A DNA stretch of 34,105 nt, taken from positions 1 to 34,105 of the forward strand of contig JAEEOO010000011.1 in assembly GCA_016284315.1 (NCBI GenBank), in the 5' to 3' direction. The position numbers and the translations under genes were made by a program. Shown here in pieces: positions 26,505-34,105 of this stretch. The notes beneath the pieces were generated by a model that worked only from the letters and a program-made list of their open reading frames with translations, ran no database searches and had not been told where the DNA came from. The stretch comes from Lachnospiraceae bacterium (lineage in GTDB: Bacteria > Bacillota > Clostridia > Lachnospirales > Lachnospiraceae). Within the stretch, counting starts at the first letter, position 1. The number at the start of each line of letters is the position of its first letter.

Positions 26505-28148
26505 TTAATACTTTCTGAATCTCTTGTATCTTTCTTCAGCAAGTTCGTTTCCGCTCTTTCCGTCCATCTTGGAAAGGAATGTGCGGATCCTTCCCTTCAT
26601 ATCACTGGCCATGGAAGAAAGGGCTGCCTCATCGGCTCCGCCGTACTCAGGAATGATCTCTTCGATAACTTCAAGTTTCTTAAGATCCTGAGCGGTGATC
26701 TTCATTACTTCGGAGGCTTCTACCTTACGGCTTCCGTCCTTCCAGAGGATTGAAGAGAATCCTTCGGGTGAGAGTATTGAGTAGATGGCATTCTCGGTCA
26801 TCCATACTTCATTTCCTACTGCAAGAGCAAGGGCTCCGCCGCTTCCTCCTTCGCCGATCATAATGGCGAGGATGGGTACTCTCATTGAGGACATTTCGTA
26901 AAGGTTTCTTGCTATCGCTTCACCCTGTCCGTTTTCCTCTGCTTCCATTCCGGGGTATGCTCCGGAAGTATTAACAAAAGTAATGATGGGTCTGCCGAAC
27001 TTCTCTGCCTGCTTCATAAGTCTTAAAGCCTTGCGGTAACCTTCAGGAGAAGGCATTCCGAAGTTGTGCTTCTGACACTCATCAAAGCTTCTTCCTCTGT
27101 TAACACCGATAACGGTTACAGGCTGTCCGTCAAGATAAGCAACACCGCCCATGATAGCGGGGTCGTCTCTGAAATATCTGTCACCGTGAAGTTCTACAAA
27201 ATCATCAAATATTGACTCAATGTACTCGGCTGCGCCAAGTCTTGATACCTTACGTGCTTCCTGAACCTTTTCCCATGCGCTGAGGGTCTGTGCCTTTGCA
27301 GCACGCTCTCTCATTATCTCGGTGGGTCCGTAATAAACCTTCTCGCCCACATTGGTGAATCCTGCATATCCACCGCGTACGGAATGCATTTCAAGTAACT
27401 TGATAAGGGTGGGGCGAAGTTCGTCTCTCTTAACAACCTTATCAACAAATCCATGCTCAAGCTGGAATTCTGCTCTCTGGAAGCCCTCGGGAAGTTTTTC
27501 TCCGATGGTCTGCTCAATAACTCTGGGACCTGCAAATCCGATCATCGCGCCGGGCTCTGCAAGAATTATATCACCAAGCATTGCAAAGCTTGCGGTAACA
27601 CCACCGGTGGTAGGATCGGTCAAAACTGAAATATAAAGAAGTCCTGCTTCGGAATGTCTCTTTAATGCAGCTGAGGTTTTCTCCATCTGCATAAGAGAGA
27701 TGATTCCCTCCTGCATTCTTGCTCCACCTGAACAGCAGAACAAAACTACGGGCATCTTTTCCTTAGTTGCAAATTCAACAGCACTGGTGATACGATCTCC
27801 TACCGCATGACCCATGCTTCCCATAAGGAATCTTGAATCGATTACGCCAAGAACTGCTTTGTGTCCGCCGATAAGGCACTTGCCAACGGTTACGCCTTCC
27901 GAAAGTCCCGTCTTATCCTGTGCCTGCTTTAATTTATCCTCATACTCGGGTGTTCCGAGTACATTTGTAGTACCGATCTCACTGAACATTTCTTCAAATG
28001 TACCCTGATCGGCTACCATTTTTATTCTATTGTCTGTCCATACCCTGAAAAGTCTTCCACATTCAGGACAAACGTAATTGTTTTCCTTTACTTTGGACCA
28101 CTCAACCTCAGCTTTGCAGCCGGGGCATGTTTCAACATTGTTTCCCAT
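26505..28148 (-). CDS. accDA: Fused acetyl-CoA carboxylase carboxyltransferase (AccD-AccA)
   Basis: A single 547-residue chain joins the beta and alpha subunits that are usually separate. The AccD part (about 1-280) begins with a zinc finger, Cys8/Cys11/Cys27/Cys30, and has [13 protein letters not shown] and [18 protein letters not shown]. The AccA part (about 290-547) has [52 protein letters not shown] and [15 protein letters not shown]. It transfers carboxyl from carboxybiotin to acetyl-CoA, giving malonyl-CoA for the fab genes upstream. The biotin carrier AccB and carboxylase AccC are not in the window. AGAGG lies before ATG 28148. Last gene of the operon. Confidence 0.96.
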
Positions 28149-28157
28149 TCTAAACCT

Positions 28158-29114
28158 CTATGCCTCGAGATATGCCTTAAGGTCTTCTAACTTTTCAATA
28201 TTTACTGTCTTAACATCCTTGTTAAGCTTCTTTACGAAACCTGTAAGTGTGCTTCCGGGTCCGATCTCTACGAACTCGTCTGCACCGTCAGCAAGAAGTC
28301 TTTCGAGAGTCTGCTGCCACTTAACTGATGATGAAACCTGTGCTGTGAGAAGAGGCTTAACCTGTGCTGCTTCTGTTACATAATCAGCATTAACATTCGC
28401 AAGATAAGGAACCTTAATGTCATTTACGGTAACAGTTTCAAGCACTTCGCCGAGCTGCTTTCCTGCGCCCTCTAAAAGAGCTGAGTGGAAGGGACCGCTA
28501 ACCTTAAGAGGAACGGCTCTTCTTGCGCCTCGCTCAACGCAAATATCAGATGCCTTTTTAACTGCATCTTCTCTACCTGTGATAACGATCTGTACAGGGC
28601 TGTTATAGTTTGCTACGGATACAACATAGGGAAGTGTATAACCATTGGCATCAGCCGCGGGACCCGCTTCCTGTACTTCCTTACAAACATCTGCTACTAC
28701 TGCAGGGTCAAGGTTAAGGATCGCTGCCATTGCTCCGCCTTCGGGAACCGCAGCCTGCATGAACATTCCACGCTTTCTTACTACCTTGAATGCATCTTCC
28801 ATGGTCATTGCTCCGGATGCAATAAGCGCACCGTACTCGCCAAGGCTTAAGCCTGCGGTTACATCGCAGGTGATGCCTTCTTTAACAACTGCAGCATAGA
28901 TAGCTGCTTCAGCTGCGAGCATGCAGATCTGGGTATACTCTGTAATGTTTAATTTCTCATTTTCTTCAAAGCAAAGCTGCTCTACAGAGAAGCCTGCAGC
29001 TGCGCTTGCTTTCTCGAAAACTTCCTTTGATTCGGGGTAGGCGTCGTAGAAGTCCTTCGCCATTCCGATGTACTGGCTTCCCTGGCCGGGAAACATAAAA
29101 ACACGTTTAGACAT
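28158..29114 (-). CDS. fabD: Malonyl-CoA:ACP transacylase
   Basis: A 318-residue malonyl transferase that loads ACP. It has VFMFPGQGSQYIGMA at the start, the active serine in AGLSLGEYGA (Ser90; the usual GHSLGE has His where this has Leu), the catalytic His in VSGPFHSALLEGA and VEIGPGSTLTGF near the end. Start ATG 29114 is supported by GGAG nine bases upstream; the ATG 15 bases earlier lies directly on AGGA and has no spacing. It is separated from fabZ by about 185 bases that hold a structured repeat, although it is probably still in the same transcript. Confidence 0.94.
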   Translation of the reverse strand: MSKRVFMFPGQGSQYIGMAKDFYDAYPESKEVFEKASAAAGFSVEQLCFEENEKLNITEYTQICMLAAEAAIYAAVVKEGITCDVTAGLSLGEYGALIASGAMTMEDAFKVVRKRGMFMQAAVPEGGAMAAILNLDPAVVADVCKEVQEAGPAADANGYTLPYVVSVANYNSPVQIVITGREDAVKKASDICVERGARRAVPLKVSGPFHSALLEGAGKQLGEVLETVTVNDIKVPYLANVNADYVTEAAQVKPLLTAQVSSSVKWQQTLERLLADGADEFVEIGPGSTLTGFVKKLNKDVKTVNIEKLEDLKAYLEA

Positions 29115-29139
29115 TTTATTTATCTCCATTCCTAGTTTC

Positions 29140-29298: not shown

Positions 29299-29742
29299 TT
29301 AACTGTATACCGCTTCCTTGGGCATTGAAGTAAATGCCAATTTACCCTTAGCTCTGACGCCGCCATCGACTGAGATCTTCACGTCGAATTTTACGAGGCC
29401 TGCGCCGCCTGCGGTCTTGGTAACTTCGATCTCGCAGACGTCTCCGGGAATTACGGGCTTAACGAACTTGAACTCGTCAACCTTGAGGAGAACGTAGATA
29501 AGGCTTTCATCGGTACCCTGGCTCTCGATGGTTACGGAACAAAGCTGGGCTGCTGCCTCGATAAGGAGCACGCCGGGCATAATGGGGGTATCGGGAAAAT
29601 GGCCCATAAAGTAAGGCTCATTGATTGATACGTTCTTGATTCCCTTTGCATATTCGCCATCCCTGATCTCAACGATCTTTTCGATCATCTGGAAAGGGGG
29701 ACGCTGTTTGATCCTCTTCTGTACTTCGTTGATGTTCATCAT
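29299..29742 (-). CDS. fabZ: 3-hydroxyacyl-ACP dehydratase FabZ
   Basis: A 147-residue hotdog dehydratase that removes water from 3-hydroxyacyl-ACP. The catalytic His48 lies in FMGHFPDTPIMPGVLLIEAA with Glu62, the classic FabZ site; RPPFQMIEKI and the C-terminal GVRAKGKLAFT are also typical. Its ATG overlaps the fabG stop (ATGA), so translation is coupled. FabZ normally does not isomerise; no FabA, FabM or FabN and no enoyl reductase are in the window. Confidence 0.95.
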   Translation of the reverse strand: MMNINEVQKRIKQRPPFQMIEKIVEIRDGEYAKGIKNVSINEPYFMGHFPDTPIMPGVLLIEAAAQLCSVTIESQGTDESLIYVLLKVDEFKFVKPVIPGDVCEIEVTKTAGGAGLVKFDVKISVDGGVRAKGKLAFTSMPKEAVYS

Positions 29743-30488
29743 AAGCTGAGTCCTCCGTCAAGTACGAGAACCTGACCGGTCACGTATGAGCATGCATCGC
29801 TGGCAAGCATAACAACTGCGCTTGCAACTTCTTCTGCGGTACCGAATCTTCCGAGAGGAATATCCTTGATGTACTGCTCTCTCTTCTCCTCGGGAATTGC
29901 CTCGATCATCTCGGTGGCAATAAATCCGGGAGCAACTGCATTTACTCTGATTCCGTAAGGAGCAAGTTCCTTTGCCATGGTAGCGGTCATTGAGTTAACT
30001 GCACCCTTGGTTGAGCTGTATACTGACTGTCCGGGAACAGCAAGTACTGAACTTACGGAAGATACGTTTACGATGCATCCCTTTTTCTTAGAGAACATCT
30101 TAACTGCTGCCTGCTGTGAGCAATAGAGATATCCCTTGATATTAAGGTTAAGACACTGGTCGATAGTGTCGGGATTCATCATCATTACATATTCATCCTT
30201 AACGATTCCCGCATTGTTTACGAGAAGATCGATCTTACCGAAGGTCTTAACAAGGGTACGCATCATGTTCTGAACGTCCTTAAGATCTGCTGCGTTTGCC
30301 TTGATGGCGATAGCCTCGCTGCCTGCTTCTTCGATAGCCTTAACTACTTCCTGAGCTGCTGCTTCGTTTGAGTTGTAGTTAACGCCTACCTTATATCCTG
30401 CTTTTCCGAGAGCAATTGCACAAGCTCTTCCGATTCCTCTTGAAGCGCCTGTTACAAGGGCTACCTTTGCTTCGTTATTATTCTCCAT
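29739..30488 (-). CDS. fabG: 3-oxoacyl-ACP reductase FabG
   Basis: A 249-residue short-chain reductase that reduces 3-oxoacyl-ACP with NADPH. It has LVTGASRGIGRACA (cofactor loop, about 11-24), NNAGI (91-95), the catalytic Ser144 in NVSSVSSVL, Tyr157 and Lys161 (YxxxK), and ends VTGQVLVLDGGLSL. Length and motifs are fully standard. AAAGG lies before ATG 30488, 23 bases after the double ketosynthase gene. Confidence 0.95.
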   Translation of the reverse strand: MENNNEAKVALVTGASRGIGRACAIALGKAGYKVGVNYNSNEAAAQEVVKAIEEAGSEAIAIKANAADLKDVQNMMRTLVKTFGKIDLLVNNAGIVKDEYVMMMNPDTIDQCLNLNIKGYLYCSQQAAVKMFSKKKGCIVNVSSVSSVLAVPGQSVYSSTKGAVNSMTATMAKELAPYGIRVNAVAPGFIATEMIEAIPEEKREQYIKDIPLGRFGTAEEVASAVVMLASDACSYVTGQVLVLDGGLSL

Positions 30489-30511: not shown

Positions 30512-32890
30512 TTAAGCCTTCTTAAGTACTACTGCACAGTAAGAACCACCTTCTGAAGTAGCGGTTGCAAGTACATACTTGTAAGCAGAAGTATCTGCCT
30601 TTCCTTCAGTAACCTTATCGCCGAAGAAGTATGCCTTCTGCTCGCTTCCAAGGTCTCCACTAAGAGTAAGTGCTGCGGTTGCGATAGAAAGTGCACTTGC
30701 TGCCGCACGGCTCTCACCAACATATGCTCTAACGTTGTGTACGGGCATCTTCTCGTCAAAGAGCTTTCCGTATACGTTCTTTTCTACTGTATCGATCTCA
30801 ACGCATCCGTTACCAAAGCCGTAAACAGCATCGATGTCTGCGATAGAGATTCCTGCATCCTTAAGTGCGATCTCGATAGCTTCCTCAAGTCCCTTCTCGG
30901 TTCCTGCTACCTTGCCGTACTCGGTTACAGCGTGGGTCATACCATAACCTGCAACCTGTGCGTACTTCTTTGCACCACGTGCGTTTGCACTCTCAGCACT
31001 CTCAAGAACAACGGTGGTAGAACCATCACTCATTGCAAGACCGGTTCCCTCGTAAAGCTTAGCTTCACCGTTGGCAACATGTCCGAGCTGGCGATAGAGC
31101 TTCTCCATAACTGCGCTGTTCTCATCAGTACCGGTTGCGAGCATAACCTTTGCATGGTTCTGACGGATCTCGTTGTATGCGTAGCAGAGTGAGCTCATAC
31201 CTGACTGAGCACCGTTGGTTACGGTTACGTTTACACCACGCATATTTGTCTTGATGGAAAGGTATCCGCCTGCTGCATTGTAAACAGTGTTGGGGAAGTT
31301 GAATGCAGAACCGCTCTTGGTGCCGTTCTTAACGATGTTCTCCTGGAACTCGTAAACGGTGGTAAGAGGTCCGTCATCGGTACCGATGATCATACCGAAG
31401 TCTTCTGCCTTCTCATCAGCGATCTCTACCTTAGCGCTCTCTAAAGCTTCAAGACCTGAAACAACCTGCATGAGGCTGAGCTTGTCGAGCTTTCTGTAGA
31501 ATGCCATCTTTACATCATACTTGTCGTAATCTTCTTTAGTGGTCTCGGCAAATACTGAATCTGAAGAGATGGTCTCTCCTGCCTTAACCTTCTCAATATA
31601 ATTCGCAACGCCGTTTCCGAGAGGGCTTACGATACCCATACCGGTAATATAGATAGGCTCGTCGTTTGCAGTCTCAGCTACGTTTCCTGCGCCCTTTGAG
31701 AAAATGATACTTGCGTTGCTTCCGCCGAATGCGAAGGAGTTACTCATTACGAAGTCAAGCTTCTTCTCCTTCATCTCGTTGGGCATGAAATCGATCTTTC
31801 CGGCCTTCTCCTTAAGAGCTTCCTTGTCCTCGTCGGTGTAACCGATTGTGGGGGGAATCTTATCTTCTACAAGAGCCTTGATAGCATATACAGCTTCGAT
31901 GGCACCTGCAGCGCCGAGGCAGTGACCAACCATTGCCTTGGTGGAGCTTACTGAAAGGTCGTCGTTTACATCATCAAAAATTGCGTGAAGTGAAAGGAAC
32001 TCAGCTTCATCGTTCTTTGCGGTTCCGGTTCCGTGTGCATTTACGTAATCGATATCCTCGGGCTTGATGCCTGAGTTTGCGATTGCGGTACGGATAGCAT
32101 ACATCTGACCGATTCCGTCAGGTCTGGGAGCGGTGATGTGGTGTGCGTCACTGCTTACGCCTGCTGCGAGAACGTCACAATAGATCTTTGCGTTTCTCTT
32201 CTGAGCATGCTCATAAGACTCAACTACGATAGCGCCTGCACCTTCACCAAGGGTGATACCGTTTGAATGGTTGAAGGGAGAGCAGGGCTGCTCTGAAAGT
32301 GCGTGAAGTGCATGGAAGCCTGCGAAAGGAACGGCTGCAAATGCATCTGCACCACCTACGATGAACATATCTGCAACGCCTGCACGGATAAGCTCACAAG
32401 CGTATGCTACGCTGATGGATCCTGCTGCACATGCGTTACCAACGTTTGTGATAACTCCGGCTGCGCCAACCTTGTTTGCAACGTGGTTAGCAATTGGAGA
32501 AATGGTCATCTTTCTGATATCTTCGTCCTTCTGACCACCTACAACATAATTCTCGATACTTACAACACCGCCGACGCAGCTTCCCATTACAACACCGAAT
32601 CTGGTAGCGTCTTCTTTGCTCATATCGATGCCTGCATCCTTGAATGCTTCTTCTGAAGCCTTGAGGCAAAGCTTGGAAGCTCTGTCCACACCCTGGTATG
32701 CATCAAGCTCATCACAGTCAACTTCTGCGCCAAGGTTTGCATAGCACTCGTCAGCATTTACGGACTTAACTGTATCAATACCCTTTTTTCCTACAAGTGC
32801 ATTGTTCCAGCACTCATCAACATTGTTTCCGATTGCGTTGATCATTCCGAGACCGGTAACTACGCATCTTGTGTTAATCTGCTTGTTCAT
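30512..32890 (-). CDS. Fused FabF-type ketosynthase and chain-length-factor-like pseudo-ketosynthase
   Basis: A 792-residue protein with two complete thiolase-fold KAS domains. Domain 1 (about 1-400) is FabF-like and keeps the triad: Cys154 in NACAAGS, His286 in VNAHGTGTAKND, His323 in AMVGHCLGAAGA, and ends FAFGGSNASIIF. A short linker leads to domain 2 (about 411-792), which starts IYITGMGIVSPLGNG. There the active Cys becomes Gln562 (VTNGAQSGMSS), the first His becomes Phe692 (AVYGFGNG) and the second becomes Glu726 (AYVGESRAAAS). Loss of the triad with Gln for Cys is the mark of chain-length factors (KS-beta) of type II polyketide and aryl polyene systems. It probably forms an intramolecular KS-CLF pair that condenses malonyl-ACP and sets chain length. 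It lies between ACP and fabG. GGGAG precedes ATG 32890. Confidence 0.88.
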   Translation of the reverse strand: MNKQINTRCVVTGLGMINAIGNNVDECWNNALVGKKGIDTVKSVNADECYANLGAEVDCDELDAYQGVDRASKLCLKASEEAFKDAGIDMSKEDATRFGVVMGSCVGGVVSIENYVVGGQKDEDIRKMTISPIANHVANKVGAAGVITNVGNACAAGSISVAYACELIRAGVADMFIVGGADAFAAVPFAGFHALHALSEQPCSPFNHSNGITLGEGAGAIVVESYEHAQKRNAKIYCDVLAAGVSSDAHHITAPRPDGIGQMYAIRTAIANSGIKPEDIDYVNAHGTGTAKNDEAEFLSLHAIFDDVNDDLSVSSTKAMVGHCLGAAGAIEAVYAIKALVEDKIPPTIGYTDEDKEALKEKAGKIDFMPNEMKEKKLDFVMSNSFAFGGSNASIIFSKGAGNVAETANDEPIYITGMGIVSPLGNGVANYIEKVKAGETISSDSVFAETTKEDYDKYDVKMAFYRKLDKLSLMQVVSGLEALESAKVEIADEKAEDFGMIIGTDDGPLTTVYEFQENIVKNGTKSGSAFNFPNTVYNAAGGYLSIKTNMRGVNVTVTNGAQSGMSSLCYAYNEIRQNHAKVMLATGTDENSAVMEKLYRQLGHVANGEAKLYEGTGLAMSDGSTTVVLESAESANARGAKKYAQVAGYGMTHAVTEYGKVAGTEKGLEEAIEIALKDAGISIADIDAVYGFGNGCVEIDTVEKNVYGKLFDEKMPVHNVRAYVGESRAAASALSIATAALTLSGDLGSEQKAYFFGDKVTEGKADTSAYKYVLATATSEGGSYCAVVLKKA

Positions 32891-32973: not shown

Positions 32974-33154
32974 GTGATGGTTATTTTTAACCTAGTGAGA
33001 AAATATCACGGATTGCTTCGCTGCAAAGCAGCTCTCGCAATCCTAACCGCATTCGCATCCGCGGCAATATAATTGCCGCTATATGCTCATGTGGTTTTAA
33101 GGTCCTTAAAGCACATCAGTACTTTCATGCAAGCATGACGCTCTGATGTGCTTT
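32974..33154. repeat. Chain of perfect hairpins between ACP and the ketosynthase gene
   Basis: Four hairpins follow one another: 32974-33009 (outer GTGAT/ATCAC, inner GGTTA/TAACC), directly abutting 33010-33043 (GGATTGC/GCAATCC enclosing GCTGC/GCAGC), 33061-33079 (GCGGCAAT/ATTGCCGC), and 33108-33154 (AAAGCACATCAG/CTGATGTGCTTT enclosing CATGC/GCATG). TTTAAGG/CCTTAAA at 33096-33110 competes with the last. GCTCATGTG occurs at 32968-32976 and again at 33085-33093. No ORF. This is the only content of the 279-base gap between the two genes. Possibly a regulatory RNA, a processing site or a mobile repeat. Confidence 0.7.
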
Positions 33155-33168
33155 AGTCCCTGATATTT

Positions 33169-33417
33169 TTACATATGTTCTACTACGTACTTAGTAAGAC
33201 TAGTGATGTTGTAGAAATTCTCTTTTGCAACACCGGTCATAACTACACCGTACTCGTTGTCGATGCAAGAGATGATCTCAAGTGAGTCTACGGAATCAAG
33301 TCCGATACCGTCACCGAAAAGAGCTACTTCATAATCAAGCTCCTCTTCAGGAATGTTGAGGTTCTCTGATAACATGCTCTTGATCTTTGCTGCTACTTCA
33401 AGTTCTTTCTCGTTCAT
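33169..33417 (-). CDS. Acyl carrier protein
   Basis: An 82-residue acidic carrier protein. Ser42 in GIGLDSVDSLEI is the phosphopantetheine site. The loop LFGDGIGLDSVDSLE is closer to carriers of aryl polyene and other specialised type II systems (LFGEGLGLDSIDALE type) than to the housekeeping AcpP (LGADSLDTVE type), which supports a dedicated role with the double ketosynthase. This comparison is from memory. Start ATG 33417 follows AAAGGA; the 15-residue longer reading is rich in Arg and has no ribosome site. A short hairpin (CCGC/GCGG) lies in the gap after the acyltransferase. Confidence 0.9.
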   Translation of the reverse strand: MNEKELEVAAKIKSMLSENLNIPEEELDYEVALFGDGIGLDSVDSLEIISCIDNEYGVVMTGVAKENFYNITSLTKYVVEHM

Positions 33418-33505
33418 TTTCTTATTCCTTTCGTAAAATCCAGTCCTTGAACGCCTGAGCATTCAAAGCAGTTCTATATGAATCCGCATAGCGGTCATAA
33501 ACAAA

Positions 33506-34105
33506 TTAAACTTCGCCGCGGCTAAGCTTTTCTCCAAGTCCTTCCACGTAGCTTCTGCTCTCCTCGCAGTACTTCTTGAGCACCTGTGAAGGTCTGCCTT
33601 TTTCGTGAAGGTCAAAATCAAGAGGCTTTCCGATAACAAGATGTGTCAATCTGAAAGGCTTGATCTTGCGGCTTATAAATATGGGAACGGGAGTTGCACC
33701 GGTCTGTTTTGCCAGCACCAGGAATCCGGGTTTAAAAGTATCCATCTGTCCTGCAGGACTTGTATGTCCTTCGGGAAGGATATAAATGGATGCGCCCTTC
33801 TCCATTACTTCATTGGTGGTGTCCAGCCATTCGGTGTCCATTCCGCTCTTTCTGTCGATGGAAATATATGGAAGATTTCTGAAAAGCCAGTTGATGGCTT
33901 TCTTATCATACCAATCCTTTCCAACGAAAGTCCAAACTCTGTATTTATGAAGGAGTCTCGTCATAAAGAGACCTTCAACGTATCCGAGGTGATTGGAAAA
34001 TACTACGCAGCTTTTTTCCAGAGCCTTTTCTGTTTCCTTCTTATCTTCCCAATGGATCTTCATGGGATACAGTGCTCTGAGAATGGGGTACGAAGCCCAA
34101 AATAA
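33506..34105 (-). CDS. PlsC-like acyltransferase (5' end beyond window)
   Basis: The frame stays open to the right edge, giving at least 199 residues, including an upstream hydrophobic stretch (LFWASYPILRALYP) ahead of the Met at 34063, so the true start is outside. It carries the 1-acylglycerol-phosphate acyltransferase pattern: FSNHLGYVEG (an HX4E instead of the usual HX4D), LPYISIDRKSG, and ILPEGHTSPAGQ (PEGTRS-like), with the final FKPGFLVLAKQTGATPVPIFI. It should transfer an acyl chain from ACP or CoA to a hydroxyl acceptor, perhaps the product of the operon that follows 88 bases downstream. The Asp-to-Glu change in the first motif is unusual and makes the substrate uncertain. Confidence 0.85.
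   Translation of the reverse strand, partial: LFWASYPILRALYPMKIHWEDKKETEKALEKSCVVFSNHLGYVEGLFMTRLLHKYRVWTFVGKDWYDKKAINWLFRNLPYISIDRKSGMDTEWLDTTNEVMEKGASIYILPEGHTSPAGQMDTFKPGFLVLAKQTGATPVPIFISRKIKPFRLTHLVIGKPLDFDLHEKGRPSQVLKKYCEESRSYVEGLGEKLSRGEV

Follow-up and report, generated by a model that had tools for sequence, protein, structure and literature searches.

What is the role of a protein that carries two full KAS domains in one chain and is encoded among fab-like genes of a rumen bacterium (Lachnospiraceae)? We addressed this question for the window, i.e. the whole analysed stretch of 34,105 nucleotides, in which a first-pass annotation had placed such a gene at 30512-32890 and had read its product as a natural intramolecular pair of ketosynthase (KS) and chain length factor (CLF). 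This interval proved exact and the gene lies on the minus strand, which holds a single open frame of 792 amino acids with an ATG start; the plus strand of the interval contains many stops. The relevant features of the window are:

33506..34105, minus strand: PlsC-like acyltransferase (PF01553), continuing past the window edge to C76:34150 (Pfam, neighbour survey)
33169..33417, minus strand: acyl carrier protein (ACP), 82 amino acids by its likely start, with a longer frame starting at 33462 (PF00550, 31.8 bits)
33001..33168, minus strand: Clostridiales-1 RNA (RF01699), in the gap between ACP and fusion (RNA family match)
30512..32890, minus strand: KS-CLF (KS-alpha/KS-beta) fusion, 792 amino acids (open reading frame, Pfam, alignment, AlphaFold model)
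31694..32890, minus strand: domain 1 of the fusion (residues 1-399), active KS with C154-H286-H323 (Pfam, alignment, trees)
30515..31669, minus strand: domain 2 of the fusion (residues 408-792), CLF-like KAS without the triad, Q562-F692-E726 (alignment, trees)
29739..30488, minus strand: FabG-type ketoreductase (Pfam, NCBIfam)
29299..29742, minus strand: FabZ-type dehydratase (NF000582, 132 bits, cut-off 113)
28158..29129, minus strand: FabD malonyl-ACP transacylase (TIGR00128, 303 bits, cut-off 260.9)
26505..28148, minus strand: AccD-AccA fused carboxyltransferase (Pfam, NCBIfam)

Pfam recognised two ketoacyl-synt domains and two C-terminal stretches in the 792-residue protein, i.e. KAS domains only, which together with the single frame bears out that one chain contains two full KAS domains. 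In the alignment C154, H286 and H323 of domain 1 match Q562, F692 and E726 of domain 2, exactly the residues named before. KS and CLF thus form one chain, encoded by one open frame, whereas they are separate chains in type II pairs. The description of the operon as fab-like was also correct, as acyltransferase, ACP, fusion, FabG, FabZ, FabD and AccD-AccA genes follow each other on the minus strand, and the serine in the motif GLDSVDSLE of the ACP was assigned by eye as its putative phosphopantetheine site.

A scan of genome contigs yielded 38 loci, from 35 of which a full-length fusion could be read (17 from Lachnospiraceae, 18 from Fibrobacter), so that with the protein of the window 36 fusions, 18 of them from Lachnospiraceae, were aligned. 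The remaining three loci hold a fragment at a contig end in a Bacteroidales MAG (L036) and, in two cases (L039, L040), a single KAS gene. Lachnospiraceae fusions are 69-95% and Fibrobacter fusions 51-53% identical to the protein of the window. The Cys-His-His triad of domain 1 is kept in all 36 fusions, and the three corresponding places of domain 2 hold neither Cys nor His in any of them: position 692 is always Phe, position 726 is Glu in 34 and Asp in two proteins, and position 562 is Gln in the 18 Lachnospiraceae proteins and Leu (14), Val (3) or Asn (1) in those from Fibrobacter. Numerous columns of domain 2 are invariant. Moreover, Eubacterium eligens ATCC 27750 has a fusion with 54% identity annotated on its finished megaplasmid, surrounded by genes for ACP, a reductase, FabZ, a malonyltransferase, a carboxyltransferase, a flavodoxin-family protein and PlsX. 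The fusion is therefore natural and no product of joining or assembly error, given 36 full-length copies from two phyla and the finished E. eligens record, and the concern that a sequencing error had created the joined frame can be dismissed. A domain 2 profile scored at least 500 bits in at least seven of 397 sampled genomes of the family, including that of the window, this number being a lower bound since a maximum of four candidates was scored per genome; a copy at a contig edge in G174 reached 246 bits and an 816-residue frame in G088 148 bits. Priestia megaterium (on pBM500) and Streptomyces (in plasmid clusters) also have diverged fused KAS-KAS proteins. In Priestia and in the Lachnospiraceae genome G088 (L085, L116) such a gene adjoins one for a GCV_T-like folate-binding protein, and in the Streptomyces clusters (L086, L087) it is accompanied by two more KS genes, a KSIII gene and an AMP-binding gene.

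The relationship of both domains to other KAS proteins was analysed in two trees, one with 61 rows and a second one from which 12 of these rows had been dropped (long rows, all Streptomyces fusion and cluster KAS), but which retained the aromatic KS pairs. Genes of E. coli CFT073 are named ApeO, ApeR and ApeC here by comparison with the order of genes listed in Table 1 of PMC8253772; ApeC, with 240 amino acids, is absent from both trees. In the larger tree the 16 rows of domain 2 are all split off by one branch (100/99, starred), with FabF and the aromatic KS-beta proteins outside, and domain 1 is placed with ApeO-type KSs as well as with the domain 1 rows of Priestia and Streptomyces (96/90, starred). 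In the trimmed tree domain 1 again joins the ApeO-type KSs (98/93, starred) and the FabF rows are separate (98/97, starred), but here domain 2 joins the aromatic KS-beta proteins (90/94, not starred), and in both trees long branches meet. Neither domain groups with FabF in either tree. For domain 2 the comparison with FabF and CLF sequences that the first-pass annotation had suggested hence gave the same answer on FabF twice, namely separation, and two different answers on KS-beta. For both domains E. eligens is placed with Fibrobacter, as expected if the domains travel together and have moved between phyla. Counting against a partner role, as the long branches do, by score domain 2 is nearer to FabF than to the CLF chains 1tqy_B or 6smo_C, and the whole protein reached 486.4 bits with the FabF model TIGR03150 (cut-off 493.75; domain 1 alone 361.7) and 462.6 bits with NF005589, the beta-ketoacyl-ACP synthase II subfamily (cut-off 387). 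A decaying FabF duplicate as domain 2, or a frame joined in assembly by mistake, would fit the lower conservation of this domain, since identity to the Fibrobacter protein L027 is 46.0% in domain 2 and 59.7% in domain 1; in view of the many invariant columns in 36 full-length fusions from two phyla, the finished E. eligens record and the tree position apart from FabF, we regard the chance of this as negligible. Separation from FabF in both trees argues against recent decay, contrary to what had been envisaged as a possible refutation, and tree position and conservation speak for domain 2 as the predicted partner of domain 1.

To this picture we added an AlphaFold2 model of the fusion based on the 36-row alignment (mean pLDDT 82.3, pTM 0.88). 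Its best match in the PDB is 6riw, the KS-CLF didomain of the PUFA synthase PfaC, over 914 columns including both domains (TMq 0.79, rmsd 7.3), and the single KAS chains in the PDB listing have TMq values of 0.43-0.45. The value for 6riw indicates that both domains are placed alike in the model and in PfaC, pairing across the KAS dimer face being a prediction of this model. In four stretches (41-53, 107-110, 184-213 and 525-536) pLDDT is below 50, so that a tunnel is not readable from the model. The predicted domain arrangement and the trees support the view that the protein is a natural intramolecular KS-CLF. PfaC likewise has an active KS followed by an inactive CLF in one chain, but there KS-CLF is joined to DH/isomerase domains, which the fusion lacks; here a stand-alone protein of 792 residues is found, with ACP, KR, DH and malonyl transferase encoded by separate genes. 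Identity over the structural alignment is 20%, suggesting that PfaC and the present fusions may have arisen apart. As a one-chain KS-CLF is established in PUFA synthases (PMC12895367; PDB 6riw), the principle is not new, and the statement that no such fusion has been described does not hold in its general form. For the clostridial operon it stands, as we found neither Lachnospiraceae nor Fibrobacter reported to have a stand-alone KS-CLF fusion in the open-access PMC literature, as far as its text was accessible, and the accessible part of the type II PKS catalogue PMC10132072 contains no word beginning with "fus". The stand-alone form in an operon of discrete enzymes with lipid-handling genes is a new variant.

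Next to the fusion the same enzymes recur. For each of the 36 fusions we surveyed 6 kb of upstream and 8 kb of downstream DNA, counting only loci with DNA on the respective side. An ACP gene is located upstream in 34/34 loci, FabG was found in all 35 loci with enough downstream DNA, and FabZ in 34 of these 35, missing in L034. The acyltransferase gene is present in 16/16 Lachnospiraceae loci with upstream DNA and in 16/18 Fibrobacter loci; it had no match at L018, L031 or the E. eligens copy, the latter having PlsX. A gene for a flavodoxin-fold/FMN-reductase protein, which lies upstream of the operon outside the window, occurs in 15/15 Lachnospiraceae loci with at least 2 kb of upstream DNA and in 6/18 Fibrobacter loci. 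Most Fibrobacter loci (16/18) and L034 have a patatin-like lipase gene (PF01734, scanned in L027), and 5/18 Fibrobacter loci an MlaE-type permease gene (scanned in L038). No FabK- or FabI-like gene was found beside the fusions in this survey, the nearby FabI matches being the FabG genes, and the operon of the window combines KS, KR, DH, ACP and LPLAT with no known ER beside them. In the complete Lachnospiraceae genome G408 the cluster additionally contains an AMP-ligase, a second ACP and a second acyltransferase, so that starters may differ; no AMP-ligase is among the scanned proteins of the window operon. The RF01699 element is also found between ACP and fusion in L003 (1715-1887) and L005 (9695-9870), but had no match in L007, L014, L034 and L027 (six of the 38 loci and the window were tested). 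In the genus it is dispersed, with 0 to 27 matches per genome and matches over cut-off in 25/31 genomes. As it is multi-copy and missing at several loci, we did not count it as part of the system and rejected a role as regulatory RNA; it probably lies outside the conserved system.

With ACP, FabG, FabZ, FabD and AccDA the operon resembles the clostridial type II fatty acid synthase, but it differs by its double KAS and by the lack of separate FabF, FabK and FabH, none of which was found in the operon or in the window's genome (a MAG, 81% complete), where no full KAS other than the fusion was found, a third match being weak and located on contig C50. The fusion might belong to a replacement fatty acid synthase in which it does the work of FabF and FabH and saturated membrane fatty acids are made with the help of an enoyl reductase that has escaped recognition, possibly the flavodoxin-fold protein. 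FabD and AccDA inside the operon and the conserved flavodoxin-fold gene beside the Lachnospiraceae fusions agree with this, as do six genomes of the genus that have the fusion (G000, G001, G002, G003, G007 and G014, five of which also bear the labels G043, G046, G047, G062 and G063) and in which neither FabF over cut-off nor FabK nor FabH was found, each gene absence being limited by MAG incompleteness. The best FabI matches in these six are the operon's own FabG (23-24% identity); in Fibrobacter, G025 and G027 each encode a further short-chain dehydrogenase that shares 29% identity with FabI. However, the fusion is not associated with FabF loss among 31 genomes of the genus (Fisher p 0.46), as six have only the fusion, three both, 11 only FabF and 11 neither. 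Furthermore, a FabF-like KAS is present in addition to the fusion in the Fibrobacter genomes and in 12 of the 18 Lachnospiraceae fusion genomes (in G017 it scores 472 bits and narrowly misses the cut-off), and in the trees domain 1 sides with the polyene KSs, away from FabF. Altogether we consider a replacement fatty acid synthase unlikely; since genomes of the genus often lack FabF, with or without the fusion, a specialised role of the fusion is favoured. The term fatty acid operon used in the first-pass annotation is doubtful, as FabK is absent from the six FabF-less genomes, the best FabI matches there are FabG, and the fusion does not track FabF loss. FabF is over cut-off in 14/31 genomes of the genus, and three of the 11 genomes with neither FabF nor fusion are 90-93% complete; gene content suggests repeated FAS-II loss in the genus. 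The biotin carboxylase domain PF02785 was detected in 0/18 genomes (G000 and 17 others) and in 13/14 control genomes, and accC over cut-off in 0/16 genomes, although AccDA is encoded in the window operon.

Gln is a mark of decarboxylating KS/CLF domains, and KSQ decarboxylases have a conserved Gln for Cys with the two His kept. Domain 2 might accordingly be a KSQ-type decarboxylase making the acetyl-ACP starter instead of FabH, consistent with Gln in all 18 Lachnospiraceae fusions and in those of E. eligens, G408, G187, G174 and G110, and with FabH being undetected in 17 of 22 genomes. But Gln is likewise present in the fusions of the five genomes in which FabH is retained (G005, G006, G017, G018 and G032), both His are also replaced in all 36 proteins (by Phe, and by Glu or Asp), and all 18 Fibrobacter fusions have Leu, Val or Asn instead of Gln, though FabH was not detected in the four Fibrobacter genomes tested. 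Since only 18 of 36 fusions have Gln and the Fibrobacter ones still have ACP, FabG and FabZ beside them, decarboxylation is weakened as the shared function, and we judge a KSQ role of domain 2 improbable. Of the earlier suggestion that the operon works without FabH, the lack of a detected FabH in the window's genome stands, while the decarboxylation on which it was based is weakened by Fibrobacter. A short or cyclised product, as made by the AmcF-AmcG KS-CYF pair of cispentacin synthesis, in place of a long polyene appears very unlikely: the NCBIfam models AmcF, AmcB and AmcE match the fusion, the ACP and FabZ, respectively, which points in this direction, but all three matches are below cut-off, FabZ scores 132 bits as FabZ and 47 for AmcE, and the neighbours include lipid acyltransferase and lipase genes. 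A celluxanthene-type pathway was ruled out, as it is an iterative type I PKS (PMC12144888).

The closest parallels in gene content are polyene-forming systems. The aryl polyene clusters share ACP, KS, CLF, KR, DH and a lysophospholipid acyltransferase with the operon, and their ApeO-type KSs are near domain 1, but KS and CLF are separate there (ApeO-ApeC) and no aromatic-starter gene was seen in the window operon. Aromatic ammonia-lyase (PF00221) is absent from 15 of 16 genomes, including that of the window; the sole match, in Fibrobacter G027, lies on contig C33 near separate KS genes, and the fusion of this genome is on C20. This second KS locus (L089) with its aromatic ammonia-lyase is probably an aryl polyene cluster. 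Arylpolyene clusters are rarely detected in Firmicutes (PMC9177762). KS, CLF, KR and DH are the polyene-making set both in aryl polyene synthesis, for which chain attachment by the lysophospholipid acyltransferase has been proposed (PMC8358021, PMC8253772), and in highly reducing type II PKSs such as the ishigamide synthase with Iga11-Iga12 (PMC10698177), from which the present system differs by the fusion of KS and CLF and by its lipid-handling neighbours.

We thus think it fairly probable that the operon encodes a one-chain highly reducing type II PKS that makes a non-aryl conjugated polyene chain for a membrane lipid. Domain 1 would condense malonyl-ACP onto the growing chain, and domain 2, as a non-catalytic partner, would close the other side of the pocket and limit chain length. 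As ACP, FabG and FabZ are encoded next to the fusion and no FabK- or FabI-like enoyl reductase was found there, a double bond would be left in each cycle, giving a non-aryl conjugated polyene acyl-ACP, which the PlsC-like acyltransferase, and at most Fibrobacter loci the patatin-like lipase, may put into membrane lipid. The acetyl-ACP starter could be formed from malonyl-ACP by the active KS, as described for PfaA-KS (PMC12895367). By analogy with the gene sets of highly reducing type II PKSs and aryl polyene synthesis the product would be unsaturated and probably a polyene, and we likewise infer length control and lipid attachment; as evidence against the polyene reading, the flavodoxin-fold protein could be an unrecognised enoyl reductase. 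The KAS II subfamily score, the further short-chain dehydrogenases of G025 and G027, the loci with no acyltransferase match and the AMP-ligase of G408 also count against it. More tentatively, as a possibility for which the chances are somewhat below even, Lachnospiraceae and Fibrobacter may share a stand-alone PKS whose non-aryl polyene is swapped into membrane phospholipids by the acyltransferase and a lipase and which, in genomes with the fusion only, would be the only de novo acyl-chain synthase.

With KS and CLF in one gene, where both halves can be changed together, the fusion offers a simple object for the question how a CLF sets chain length. The system moreover draws attention to a probable unsaturated lipid in the membranes of gut anaerobes, for which the human species E. 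eligens and the rumen genus Fibrobacter provide cultured hosts in which to look. If the proposal is true, it would reveal a class of membrane polyene unreported in gut anaerobes.
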